NCBI GenBank assembly: GCA_949295505.1
Contig: CASFLH010000046.1
Span: 1 to 44,363, forward strand
DNA length: 44,363 nt
Direction: 5' to 3'
Source of the DNA: an uncultured Spirochaetales bacterium
GTDB lineage: Bacteria; Spirochaetota; Spirochaetia; Sphaerochaetales; Sphaerochaetaceae
Shown here: positions 38,857 through 44,363 of the stretch, piece after piece
How positions within the stretch are numbered: the first letter of the stretch is position 1
Layout of the letters: each line of letters starts with the position of its first letter
Position numbers and translations under genes: made by a program
The notes under the pieces: model-generated
What the model was told of the DNA's origin: nothing
The model's input: the letters and a program-made list of their open reading frames with translations, nothing else
Databases searched by the model: none

Positions 38857-40457
38857 ATGAAAAAGATACTTAATTTCATTTCTTCAATTCCCCGGTCGGG
38901 GGGGGGGGTATAATACCTCTTTTGTTTCTCGTATCGATTCTTTCTATCTTTTCTGCTTGCAACAATCCTTATGATTATCCTTTATTTCCACCGGTAAATC
39001 ATGACAAAAACTGGACAGTAGTAATTATAAATACGCCTCTGGAATCTGGGAAATCTGAAGCATATACACTTAATCGTGCCTCTTCTTTCACATTGCCAAA
39101 TCAGATAGATTCAGATGAATACAAATTTGACAGATACATGACTGAAGATGGCGATTATTTGTTGCCCGGTGATATGATTGAGTACGAAGGCAATGATAAT
39201 GTTGTCATTTATGCAGAATGGCTTGATCTTATTTCATTCAGTTCAACAGAGAATCTCTCTGACATCATTGCTGAGGGAAAGAATGTTGCCATTGACTTCC
39301 CTGCCGGAGAATTCGGCAGCGGTGATACGATATCAGTTCTTCCGGGTCAGAGAATTTATCTGAATGGAGCAGATGGTTCCACTACCCTGAAAAGCTTCTT
39401 CACCCTCGCAGAAGAATCATCTCTCCGAATCGAGAATCTCAGCATGGAACCTGGAACAGAAGGGAATATAATTTCTTCCAGCACAGGTAATGTTGATATT
39501 GAGATTGATAATTCAAAGATGATTCCCACAGGAGATTCTTCTGGAATCATGATTGATATTCCCGACCCTGATACAACATCAGGAAACGCGAACATCTCAA
39601 TATCCGATACGGAAATCGTTCTTAGCCCTGCCACCAATTCGTATGGAGCTGCGAATTCATACGGGATGGCCCGCGGAATAAGCATTGGCCCTAAAGATTA
39701 CCGAGAATCCGGATCTCATGGCTATCTGGAATCTCTGAATCTTGATATAGACAATCTCACGATTTCAACAACAACTGAGCACTCTGCCATAGGTGTTTTT
39801 GTTTCCCGTGCCAACCAGTTTGATATAAACATCAAAGACTCCAGAATAGAGACAGGTAATATTCATTACCCAGTATTCATCAACCACTCTGGAAACAATG
39901 ATTCTGAGAGTTATATTGAAATCACAGATTCACACCTCGAAGGCTATGGAACGTTTTATATCGCAGGGGGGTCAAAAAAGGTACAGGCTGTTATCAACGA
40001 TTCAACACTGAAAGCAATCAATACCAATTTTGATAATGGATACAATGATTTTTCCGTGATTTCAATGCATGACAGTGAGAACAGTACAATCGAAGTAGAT
40101 AACAGCGATTTCATTTTCGGCAAAGCATCTTCAGATTCAGCTCACATGAAGGTTTTCTGCTTCCAGTATAACAAAGGGTGTTCAACGTTGAACGGTGGAA
40201 GCCAGTTTATCTTCAGGAATTGCGACTTGGATGATCAGGGAACATGGGAAGATGGAAAAGATTTCGGAGCCATCGATATTCTTGTGAATCCATCAGGAAA
40301 CAAAAACTCATATTCACTCGACGCTTATTCTTTAAATAGTCTTCTGGCAAATCTGCCAGGTAGCCATATTGGCACATGCATCGATGATAATTATTCCGTT
40401 GATGATAAAATCACTATCGACTGGAATGTCTACTATCTGACAACTGAAACTGAATAA
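38857..40457 (+). CDS. phase-variable surface lipoprotein with InlB-type repeat and beta-helix; frame broken by G11 tract
   Basis: Starts at ATG 38857 with AAGGAG upstream. As written, frame from this ATG ends at TAA 38911, just after an 11-G run (38898-38908). With 12 or 9 Gs the frame joins the long downstream frame (533 codons with 12) and makes a complete lipoprotein leader: MKKILNFISSIPRSGGGG, then a hydrophobic core IIPLLFLVSILSIFSA and the lipid-anchor Cys of SAC|NNP. Without the tract the downstream frame has only a TTG and half a leader. Mature protein: a Listeria-Bacteroides (InlB B-type) repeat (YKFDRYMTEDGDYLLPGDMI, ending IYAEW), then Asn/Asp/Ser/Ile-rich repeats of a right-handed beta-helix. 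Likely surface adhesin. Low GC. Confidence 0.85.
38898..38908 (+). repeat. poly-G(11) tract in signal-peptide codons
   Basis: Eleven consecutive G, within codons for the n-region of the lipoprotein leader. Only lengths divisible by three (9, 12) link ATG 38857 to the mature frame. 10 Gs reaches a stop at TGA after about 18 further codons and 11 Gs at TAA at once. Confidence 0.9.
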
Positions 40458-40463
40458 AGTACA

Positions 40464-40489
40464 GGGCTCGCCTTTAATCGGGCGAGCCC
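40464..40489. terminator. stem-loop terminator between convergent lipoprotein and HTH genes
   Basis: GGGCTCGCC (40464-40472) pairs with GGCGAGCCC (40481-40489), loop TTTAATCG. The same kind of stem (GGGCTCACC/GGTGAGCCC) ends the second HTH cassette at 43745. Poor T-tracts on both sides. Confidence 0.65.
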
Positions 40490-40546: not shown

Positions 40547-40738
40547 TCAGCCCCGATCTGCCCAGGTGTTGTCACCAGAAGCGAATCTACGCTTATACTC
40601 ACGAACTGTATACACATTCAGCTCCGTAAGCTGAGCAGTCTTCTTGTATCCGTATCCCTGCTCAAAGAGCTTTAGGCATTCCTGCCGTTTCTCGTTTGGA
40701 ATCCTTTGCCTTTGGAGGGATGTGGCTCTTTTGTCCAT
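40547..40738 (-). CDS. small helix-turn-helix protein, cassette copy 1
   Basis: 63 residues, one homeodomain-like/transposase-type helix-turn-helix: KRQECLKLFEQGYGYKKTAQ followed by LTELNVYTVREYKRRFASG. It resembles the N-terminal HTH of IS-element OrfA and resolvase-like proteins but stands alone, with no catalytic domain. GGAGG is five bases before the ATG at 40738. It lies about 50 bases downstream of the Ig-like lipoprotein gene in the same direction, behind a hairpin. The copy at 43815 matches 51 of 52 core residues although about a dozen third-position bases differ, so the protein is under selection. Confidence 0.8.
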   Translation of the reverse strand: MDKRATSLQRQRIPNEKRQECLKLFEQGYGYKKTAQLTELNVYTVREYKRRFASGDNTWADRG

Positions 40739-40789: not shown

Positions 40790-43588
40790 TCAACCAACAT
40801 CAATAGTTACTTCAATCGGAGCTTCTGATGAGTGGCCGTTGCAAGTCCAGGAAATCTCTACTGCATACTCTTTTTCTGGAGTGCTCCATGTAGTGACAGA
40901 TTCACCATCAGTTACATTCGCAGCAGGGCATACATACTTGTAATCAATGATAGGCATCTGATCTATTGGTGTTGCACCCTCACCAAATGTACGACCAGAG
41001 AACCACGTCACCTTGAAACCAAAGTCATCATCGTCATATGTTGTACTCGGCTGACCTGTAATTGTATCAGAAGCAACAGTAATACTTACAGGATAGTCTT
41101 CAACAGGTTTAACCCATGCAATAAACCTATCCTGAGTCTTTCCATTGCAGCTCCATGCAAATACTACGTTCTCTCCGTCTGTATTTGTCGCCGTTGCAGG
41201 TTCCTTGAGTGTAAATTCAATCTCAGGTGCTTCATTATCAGCATATTCTGTACCAGAAGCCCATTCGACATCGAAATTGAACATATCAAGTGTATAAGGA
41301 GTTCCTGTGTATACTACCAGATCATCCTTAAGGGTTGCAGTAACAGTTTCCGGATAATCATAACCAATTACTGTAAACGGAACGAGATCATTTACAGTCT
41401 CGCCTGTTTCACCAACATAGGAAACCTTTGCATAGACCGTATTCTCACCAACAGCAACATTTGTAGTGACAAGCTCAAATCCGCTAATTGTGATTGGAGT
41501 ATCTGTGCCATGAGCCTTGTATCCGCTTACTGTATAATCTGCTGTATCAAGAGCTGTGTCCTTGAGGCTGTCATTATAATAGTAAATAGTTTCTTCAACA
41601 CCTTCTGCCGGAGTAATTACAAGCTCTTCTCCTGTCAGCTTATAATACGGAGTCCAAGCAGGAATTGTAAGATCTGGTGTAAGTCTTATCTTCTTAGGAC
41701 CATTTTCACCATCTACAATTGCATTGAATCCATATGTCTGTTCTGTAGCAGCAACAGTAATCTCATCAATCATTCCTGTTGTTCTATTGACAATGTTGTA
41801 CTCACCTTCCTCAAGCTCTGCGACGATACCGAGATCATTCACAGCATTGACTTTGACAGTTGCTGTCGCGTCAGCAAGAGGCTTACCATCTTTAGTTGCT
41901 GCTGAATATTCGACATCTACATCAAGGCTATCTGCGTATGCAGGAGCAAGTGTAAGCGGGAAGTAAGCTACAGATGCCTTACCAACAGCATAAGCATATG
42001 TTACCTTAACATAGATCTGATCAACATCACGGAGATCTACGCCATCAGTAAGCGGTGTCATTACATCGTCAGTAAGTGAATATGCGAATGTGATTCCAAA
42101 CTTGTCAAAATTACCATTTGGAGCCATTACAGCACCTTCACTTGGTCTGATGAGTACGGACTTCACACCTGTCGTGTATTCAGGAGCAGTTGTATACTGC
42201 TGGGCTGCAAGCGTGATTCCAGAAAGATCTGCAGACTCGATGACATATGTTGTCTCGACTGGTTCAATCTTTCCAAGTGCAATTCCCTGGGTTGCACTTA
42301 CTCCCTTGTAGACAGGATATACCACAAGATAAGTGCTACCTACTTTTACCGTGTCAGAATCGCCACCTGTTGTGGTTGTATATGTATCCGCAGCTGGAAT
42401 CTTTCCATCTGTGATTGGTGTTGATCCACTTACAGAACCAAAATTATTTTCCTTGTATGCATATACCCACTCAAGACCTTCATCTTCCGGTGCGATTCTG
42501 TCTTTATCGATATATGCTTTGAGCATGGAAGACATATCAGGAAGATCTGATCCAGCAACAAGAATAGGATCCTTGTATGTTCCACTCTTTACAACAGTTA
42601 TATTTGCATCATCAAGTGTAAGTTTTTCATTTACAAACACAGTAGATACGCCTGCAAACTCTGCAAGGATGCCAACACCACTTGCCTTATCCGTGCAGAG
42701 ATTATTGGATGTGAAAGCATAACCATCTTGATCAACCCATGTGAATGTCACATCGGAAGAATCAACAGAGTACTCCTCTTCACCAACAAATGCTGTTACC
42801 TTGAACTTGGAGGCATCAACTGCAGGAAGTTCTGTGCCGTAATCGAGCTTAGCAAGAGAATATTCAGTAATTTCATTCACAAATTCTACTTCAATCTTGG
42901 AAACAACTGCATCCTCAGGAAGCTTTGATGACTCTCCATCCCATGTAGCTGTGAAATTAAAGTCAGCATTTACAGCAACACCATTGAAATTACCAACAAG
43001 AGCTTTAACTGTAGCCTTTGCCTCAACAGAAGGATTCTCTTCAGTAAGATTCTTAACTGTTGCCGGATCAACAAGATATTCACCAGGAACAAGAACCATT
43101 GTCTTCTCAGCATTCTCACTGTCAAGGTATGTTGCTGTTACTGTAAGATCTGACTCTGGGATATCAATCGTAACGTTAGCCGAAACAGACTCAGCATGTC
43201 CTGGATATGACTCAGGTCCAGTTACTGCGATGCTCTTGATGTTGTAGACTTTAACAGCAGCTGTTGCACAGATATCAGAATCAGCAAAGTTCTTTCCGAG
43301 ATCTGCCTTGACGGTATCCCCAACATTTACCTTTCCAACTGCTCCCTTATCAGTATCCAGATAAACAGATACTGTCTCATCCGCAGCAACGATTCTTCCG
43401 TTATCATATGTGATAGTTACGGTGAATTTGCTCGGATCGAATGCCTGCCCTTCAAGAAAGTCGCCAGTCTGGTTGATTGTACCACCGACAACAAAGCTTG
43501 GAAGCGTAGGCGCATTATCGCATCCCACAAACATGGCAAGCGCCATGATTGCGACTATGCACGTAAAAAGAATAGACTTCTTTTTCAT
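40790..43588 (-). CDS. large lipoprotein with repeated Ig-like domains
   Basis: 932 residues. The signal peptide begins MKKKSILFTCIVAIMALAMF and runs to a lipobox VGC|DN with Cys23. The rest is a chain of about ten beta-sandwich domains of the bacterial Ig-like type, each with the pattern of strand, YDNGR or similar turn, ADLGKN, and closing V-x-V-x-Y (for example GGTINQTGDFLEGQAF, SIAVTGPESYPGHAESV, SVTIASD-like strands late on). Surface-exposed adhesin or stalk is likely; no enzyme domain seen. AGGAGG precedes the ATG. The G10 tract sits in the promoter spacer. Composition is low in GC and rich in Thr, Val, Asp. Confidence 0.88.
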   Translation of the reverse strand: MKKKSILFTCIVAIMALAMFVGCDNAPTLPSFVVGGTINQTGDFLEGQAFDPSKFTVTITYDNGRIVAADETVSVYLDTDKGAVGKVNVGDTVKADLGKNFADSDICATAAVKVYNIKSIAVTGPESYPGHAESVSANVTIDIPESDLTVTATYLDSENAEKTMVLVPGEYLVDPATVKNLTEENPSVEAKATVKALVGNFNGVAVNADFNFTATWDGESSKLPEDAVVSKIEVEFVNEITEYSLAKLDYGTELPAVDASKFKVTAFVGEEEYSVDSSDVTFTWVDQDGYAFTSNNLCTDKASGVGILAEFAGVSTVFVNEKLTLDDANITVVKSGTYKDPILVAGSDLPDMSSMLKAYIDKDRIAPEDEGLEWVYAYKENNFGSVSGSTPITDGKIPAADTYTTTTGGDSDTVKVGSTYLVVYPVYKGVSATQGIALGKIEPVETTYVIESADLSGITLAAQQYTTAPEYTTGVKSVLIRPSEGAVMAPNGNFDKFGITFAYSLTDDVMTPLTDGVDLRDVDQIYVKVTYAYAVGKASVAYFPLTLAPAYADSLDVDVEYSAATKDGKPLADATATVKVNAVNDLGIVAELEEGEYNIVNRTTGMIDEITVAATEQTYGFNAIVDGENGPKKIRLTPDLTIPAWTPYYKLTGEELVITPAEGVEETIYYYNDSLKDTALDTADYTVSGYKAHGTDTPITISGFELVTTNVAVGENTVYAKVSYVGETGETVNDLVPFTVIGYDYPETVTATLKDDLVVYTGTPYTLDMFNFDVEWASGTEYADNEAPEIEFTLKEPATATNTDGENVVFAWSCNGKTQDRFIAWVKPVEDYPVSITVASDTITGQPSTTYDDDDFGFKVTWFSGRTFGEGATPIDQMPIIDYKYVCPAANVTDGESVTTWSTPEKEYAVEISWTCNGHSSEAPIEVTIDVG

Positions 43589-43621
43589 CGTATTCTCTCT
43601 CCTCCTAGATTCTCTGCATCA

Positions 43622-43652
43622 AGGTTACCCCCCCCCCGTATAAAATTGTCAA
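43622..43652 (-). promoter_or_regulatory. promoter of the Ig-like lipoprotein with G10 in the spacer
   Basis: Minus strand: perfect TTGACA (43647-43652), then 19 bases of which ten are G, then TAACCT (43622-43627). Two fewer Gs would give the optimal 17-base spacing. The -10 hexamer is the same as in the lacI promoter, where spacing is 17. Confidence 0.6.
43628..43637 (-). repeat. poly-G(10) tract (C10 on the plus strand)
   Basis: Ten consecutive C on the plus strand, G on the coding strand, between the -35 and -10 of the Ig-like lipoprotein promoter and about 40 bases before its ATG. Confidence 0.9.
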
Positions 43653-43744: not shown

Positions 43745-43769
43745 GGGCTCACCCGGAGAAGGTGAGCCC
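43745..43769 (-). terminator. stem-loop terminator after HTH cassette copy 2
   Basis: GGGCTCACC (43745-43753) pairs with GGTGAGCCC (43761-43769), loop CGGAGAA. On the minus strand it is followed by TTTACAATCC. Upstream of it on that strand a GAAGAG/CTCTTC hairpin is shared with copy 1. Confidence 0.7.
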
Positions 43770-43814: not shown

Positions 43815-44033
43815 TCATCGAGCGAAGGCTTTTCCTCCACCCCGATCCGCCCAGGTGTTATCACCGGAGGCGAATCTCCGCTTATACTCACGAACCGTAT
43901 ATACATTCAGTTCCGTAAGCTGAGCAGTCTTCTTGTATCCGTATCCCTGCTCAAAGAGCTTCAGGCATTCCTGACGCTTCGCATTTGGAATCCTTGTTCT
44001 GCTGCCTCGGAGGGACGTGTTGTTTGTTTCCAT
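43815..44033 (-). CDS. small helix-turn-helix protein, cassette copy 2
   Basis: 72 residues with the same single HTH as copy 1 (KRQECLKLFEQGYGYKKTAQ, then VYTVREYKRRFASGDNTWAD), a different first ten residues, and a nine-residue C-terminal extension (GGKAFAR end) where copy 1 has a stop. AGGAGG lies before the ATG at 44033. It is about 50 bases downstream of the partial surface-protein gene, behind a hairpin, exactly as copy 1 follows the Ig-like lipoprotein. Sequence-specific DNA binding is probable; the target is unknown. Confidence 0.8.
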   Translation of the reverse strand: METNNTSLRGSRTRIPNAKRQECLKLFEQGYGYKKTAQLTELNVYTVREYKRRFASGDNTWADRGGGKAFAR

Positions 44034-44083: not shown

Positions 44084-44363
44084 TTAGTTACCAAACTGAT
44101 ATGCGAAGTATGCAATCTTACCTGTTGTTACATCTGTATATGATCCGAAGATTGTATACGTATAAGCAGGATCAGCCGGCCAAGGTGTACTGAATGTACC
44201 AGAAGTCTTATTTCCCTCTGGAATCTGTCCTTCTTCTGTCAGATTAACCTTACCCTGCATATAACCAACAAGCTTGAGATTTGTGTCGTTACCATACGTT
44301 GTCACAGATGTCTTATCGATATCAAAGTCATCAAAATTATACTGGAAATTAGCAGTAAGCTTC
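44084..44363 (-). CDS. C-terminal end of a surface protein, continues beyond the window
   Basis: The last 92 codons of a minus-strand gene whose start is outside the window. The visible part is rich in Thr, Asp, Tyr and Asn, with beta-strand-like alternation (KLTANFQYNFDDFDIDKT, then YTYTIFGSYTDVTTGKIAYF) and no recognisable domain. Low GC and the downstream hairpin plus HTH gene match the Ig-like lipoprotein cassette, so this is probably another secreted or lipid-anchored surface protein. Upstream leader and any G tract cannot be seen. Confidence 0.7.
   Translation of the reverse strand, partial: KLTANFQYNFDDFDIDKTSVTTYGNDTNLKLVGYMQGKVNLTEEGQIPEGNKTSGTFSTPWPADPAYTYTIFGSYTDVTTGKIAYFAYQFGN

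Follow-up and report, generated by a model that had tools for sequence, protein, structure and literature searches.

Poly-G tracts in the promoter spacers of predicted surface lipoprotein genes as candidate phase-variation switches in an uncultured genus of spirochaetes

The window analysed here, a stretch of 44,363 nucleotides from an uncultured Spirochaetales bacterium, contains a promoter in which a run of ten Gs lies between the -35 and -10 hexamers. Comparison with related genomes makes it very probable that this promoter is subject to transcriptional phase variation as in porA and tp0126. Since the same arrangement recurs more than 200 times in the genus, these bacteria probably switch a whole arsenal of surface proteins randomly between on and off through the length of the G run.

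The poly-G promoter in the window

All elements of the promoter lie on the minus strand, where the sequence of 43588-43652 reads, from 5' to 3', TTGACA, ATTTTATAC, ten Gs, TAACCT, and then AGGAGG and ATG further downstream. These elements and the surrounding genes are as follows.

43647-43652, minus strand: -35 hexamer TTGACA, read from the sequence and used to anchor the 229 genus sites
Between TTGACA and the G tract, minus strand: nine-base fixed part ATTTTATAC, read from the sequence
43628-43637, minus strand: G10 tract in the promoter spacer, candidate slippage switch, read from the sequence
43622-43627, minus strand: -10 hexamer TAACCT (TAnnnT), abutting the tract, read from the sequence
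43601-43606, minus strand: Shine-Dalgarno sequence AGGAGG, read from the sequence
43588, minus strand: start codon ATG of the 932-aa lipoprotein, read from the sequence
40790-43588, minus strand: ORF of the 932-aa lipoprotein, leader MKKKSILFTCIVAIMALAMFVGC followed by DN, Ig-like domains probable, family A (translation; weak Ig-like model)
40547-40738, minus strand: gene of a small HTH_23-like protein, after the lipoprotein gene (Pfam score just under the gathering cutoff)
40464-40489, minus strand: hairpin resembling an intrinsic terminator, after the HTH gene (terminator scan)
43745-43769, minus strand: hairpin rich in G+C, after the preceding HTH gene and before the poly-G promoter (seen in the sequence; absent from the output of the terminator scan)
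43815-44033, minus strand: second of the two small HTH genes, closing the preceding gene pair
44084-44362, minus strand: 3' end of a further ORF before the second HTH copy, running off the contig

The preliminary description of this DNA, made from the letters alone, had placed TTGACA and TAACCT 19 bases apart with ten Gs between them, and this is exact: the spacer is the sum of the nine-base fixed part and the ten Gs. The promoter is missed by a simple promoter scan because such a scan admits only spacers of 16-18 bases. Long G tracts in the window are not a matter of chance, since seven overlapping matches to G8, located in two tracts, stand against 0.63 expected from dinucleotide shuffles. 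The -10 hexamer TAACCT is weak, which counts against reading the promoter as a switch.

The proposed mechanism starts from the position of the G10 tract, which lies in the spacer that links a perfect -35 hexamer to a -10 hexamer of the TAnnnT form. Slipped-strand mispairing would add or remove Gs and thereby change the distance between the two hexamers, and the changed distance would decide, cell by cell, whether the lipoprotein gene is transcribed at a high level, at a low level or not at all. Where an HTH gene is present, it would be set together with the lipoprotein gene by co-transcription.

Recurrence in the genome, the genus and beyond

In the source genome (1.76 Mb, 79.6% complete, 113 contigs), G tracts nine bases long or longer number 12, and six of these are preceded by TTGACA at a distance of 9-10 bases and followed immediately by TAnnnT. 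The upstream hexamer alone would be expected 0.04 times (P about 4e-12), and a reversed control pattern gave no match in this genome. The search was extended to 48 genomes of the genus with the pattern TTGACA, 7 to 14 bases, eight or more Gs and then a base other than G, the -10 element being left unconstrained. It returned 229 sites in 34 genomes, which carry from one to fourteen promoters each under this strict pattern, and no match in the 48 genomes when reversed. The remaining 14 genomes have no such site, and this counts against the switch.

With the -10 left free, TAnnnT adjoins the tract in 101 of the 108 distinct genus sites that were read. The start codon mostly lies 20-45 bases downstream of the tract, and a loose lipoprotein-signal pattern finds a lipobox in 97 of 101 readable downstream ORFs, as against 1/16 window genes lacking a poly-G tract. 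Judging by this lipobox, the predicted cargo of the poly-G promoters is surface lipoproteins.

The pattern is enriched across the class Spirochaetia. In a sample of 393 genomes of the phylum, TTGACA followed by 8 to 13 bases, G8 and TAnnnT was found in 64 genomes, nearly all of this class, with about 170 sites compared with one reversed match. Other spirochaetes (G392 and G403) also show the layout, on contigs of megabase length. The first of these, a genome of family f24 with a single contig no shorter than 2.8 Mb, has seven such promoters, with tracts of 12 Gs and longer and several -10 elements reading TATAAT. An uncontrolled scan of 85,000 genomes yielded at least 114 stretches in many phyla, mostly before signal-peptide genes. 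In the same scan, which had no matched control, TTGACA, a spacer, G8 and TAnnnT precede secreted proteins in Clostridia, Bacilli, Saccharibacteria, Coriobacteria and others, and many of the matching taxa are gut bacteria.

Tract length and working spacing

Tract lengths are assembly values, mostly from MAGs, and assemblies can get the length of a homopolymer wrong; this too weighs against the switch. With this proviso, the number of Gs ranges from 8 to 12 among the 156 genus sites listed. This number often varies among promoters of a single genome that share an identical fixed part (for example 11, 10 and 10, or 9 and 12), and in the source genome one identical fixed part carries 12 and 9 Gs. 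Tracts of eight and ten Gs are likewise found at loci of different MAGs whose upstream flanks share 93-95% identity and whose downstream flanks share 99-100%, the comparison in all these cases being between loci and MAGs and not between cells of one clone. Tracts below eight Gs stay rare when the pattern is lowered to five, so that long, slippage-prone tracts are what is retained. Taken at the level of comparison, the recurrence, the conserved hexamers, the differences in tract length between near-identical loci and the lipoprotein cargo strongly favor the earlier proposal of transcriptional phase variation through G number.

The commonest spacing is 19 bases (67 of the 156 listed sites) instead of the textbook value of 17, a further point against the switch. 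The length of the fixed part also bears on the tract: ten or more Gs are found at 21/39 sites with a nine-base fixed part and at 21/85 with a ten-base one (Fisher p = 0.002), while fixed parts of 7-8 bases mostly give spacings of 16-17. This clear mode at 19 and the partial offsetting of fixed-part length by G number are what would be expected if the tract were an element of fixed length, either rigid A-form-like DNA or the operator of a regulator, with no switching at all. Such a reading is nevertheless improbable, because it has to accommodate G8 to G12 across promoters with identical fixed parts and near-identical flanks, and because interrupted tracts, which would suit a structural role equally well, number 14 against 229 pure ones.

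For the slippage switch, the same 14 genus promoters, in which an A or a T breaks the tract, provide a natural readout of the working spacing. Their tracts are presumably frozen, as the break should prevent slippage, and the promoters are possibly phase-locked. Their spacing is exactly 19 in 10 of the 14 cases (p about 0.03 compared with pure tracts), and therefore a spacing of 17, which corresponds to G8 in the window, need not be the ON state. The preliminary description had pointed to G8 for its 17-base spacing, that of the lacI promoter with the same hexamers, a value taken from other bacteria; the interrupted tracts and the compensation between nine- and ten-base fixed parts point instead to about 19 in this clade. 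There is thus moderate evidence, moderate because related loci are not independent, that 19 may be near the active spacing for the common class of these promoters, and the G10 allele of the window may be ON.

The lipoprotein downstream

The 932-aa protein has a typical lipobox (MFVGC, followed by DN), and its earlier description as a large lipoprotein stands. The Ig-like part of that description is less firm: the protein has no Pfam domain at the gathering score, Ig-like ones included, and no PADLOC family. A relative in the genus reaches a score of 17.1 with Big_3, below the cutoff of 21.2, and a predicted structure of a block of the window protein (pLDDT 63-87, first 90 residues only) matches Ig folds weakly, among them that of Leptospira LigA (E 0.004). 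The weak model and the sub-threshold match are both in keeping with Ig-like domains.

The protein belongs to family A, which comprises five genes in the source genome, that of the window and four paralogs. Their first 50 residues are 78-89% identical (78-87% when the window gene is compared with the other four) and their bodies only 10-40% identical over most blocks, so the family appears, from these alignments, as a common leader set on diverse bodies. Two of the copies depart from the layout: one (C93:2281-2290) has G10 with TTGACA absent at the expected place, and another (C95:50223-50245) has only G7, followed by CTATTGT, a shifted TATTGT. These two copies are possibly degenerate or locked.

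A promoter and leader held in common before divergent bodies, together with contigs that often break at the HTH gene or at the promoter, would also fit a role of the poly-G tract as a mark of recombination, in which repeated cassettes (promoter, leader and HTH ends) swap lipoprotein bodies and effects on spacing are secondary. We consider this very unlikely as the main explanation, given that no rearranged pairs of loci were identified and that recombination alone does not explain why the tract should sit exactly between -35 and -10; cassette recombination could, however, act in addition to the switch. Finally, although every tract length derives from an assembly and many sites lie near contig ends, it is scarcely credible that the tracts are sequencing or assembly artefacts, or their length differences base-calling errors, when they stand 7-13 bases behind TTGACA, abut TAnnnT and precede lipoprotein genes in dozens of separate assemblies, megabase-long contigs included, with zero matches to the reversed pattern.

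The small HTH gene

The lipoprotein and HTH genes seem to constitute a larger unit, and the ORF cut by the contig end at 44084-44362 is, by inference, part of another one. Of the 75 complete genus loci, 39 have an HTH gene no more than a few hundred bases behind the lipoprotein gene; these are 37/62 loci with a fixed part of at least nine bases as against 2/13 others. Genomes with poly-G promoters possess HTH genes in 29 of 34 cases, those without in 1 of 14 (p = 5e-7, uncorrected for relatedness), and across the genus genomes the HTH copy number follows the number of poly-G promoters (rho 0.88). Among the 22 family genera compared, the gene is confined to this one, no copy being found in the other 21. 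Differences between HTH genes in ungapped matches are divided 26/20/54% among the three codon positions, a pattern such as a gene under purifying selection would leave. It is conceivable, if rather unlikely, that the HTH protein regulates the poly-G promoters, the slippage state of one locus influencing others. Should this be true, the surface-lipoprotein switches would form a network that is stochastic and yet wired.

Other homopolymer tracts in the source genome

A second long G tract in the window lies some distance from the promoter, within a coding region.

38898-38908, plus strand: G11 tract at the place where another lipoprotein ORF encodes its signal peptide (ATG at 38857, body frame 38874-40454)

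In this lipoprotein gene (38857-40457, plus strand), a tract of eleven Gs puts the body out of frame with the ATG, which makes the gene another candidate for phase variation, 5 kb away. Elsewhere in the genome, poly-C tracts, as read on the coding strand, are located within lipoprotein genes on contigs C14 and C70, and of two further tracts one is inside an ORF on C3 and the other lies ahead of a gene on C84. Since tracts are found inside coding regions as well as in promoters, translational and transcriptional switches seem to coexist.

Relation to known systems

In pathogens, poly-G promoter switching is known for single genes or small numbers of genes. In T. pallidum, poly-G tracts of variable length are found in the promoters of the surface-protein genes tprE/G/J and tprL, a likeness shared by the genus described here. 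The vlp genes of Mycoplasma hyorhinis are clustered, and we know of no HTH partner for the Vlp lipoproteins. The loci of the present genus are dispersed and their tracts are poly-G, whereas those of vlp are poly-A; the likeness lies in a family of lipoproteins whose promoters all contain a homopolymeric tract (PMC10502178).

The closest counterpart in a spirochaete is tp0126 of T. pallidum, a surface-protein gene in which a poly-G tract between -35 and -10 sets the spacing by its length, with best transcription at 17 (PMC7864442). It is one OmpW-like gene with a reported optimum of 17, while the genus has many lipoprotein genes per genome, a mode of 19 and often an HTH gene. In porA of Neisseria meningitidis, a poly-G tract of 9-11 likewise lies between -35 and -10, expression is graded (11G > 10G > 9G) and antibody selection is observed (PMC3639595); this is a single porin gene, unrelated in organism and cargo to the lipoproteins of spirochaetes. 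Of the comparators first proposed, tp0126 and porA are the right ones, their tracts being placed as in the window; tprL is stated to work differently from tp0126 (PMC7864442).

The principle of the switch is already known; what is new is the size of the repertoire, the lipoprotein-HTH unit and the taxon, and no paper on such promoters in gut spirochaetes was found in the literature searched. With 1-14 promoters per genome, a population would be a mosaic of surface-lipoprotein combinations, and this diversity could be of benefit against immunity, phages or a change of niche. As far as the genomes compared here indicate, the window promoter belongs to a repertoire that extends across the genus and in which an HTH gene is often encoded alongside. 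An uncultured, gut-type genus of spirochaetes thus appears to run its arsenal of surface lipoproteins, at up to 14 strict-pattern loci per genome, on a single type of switch.
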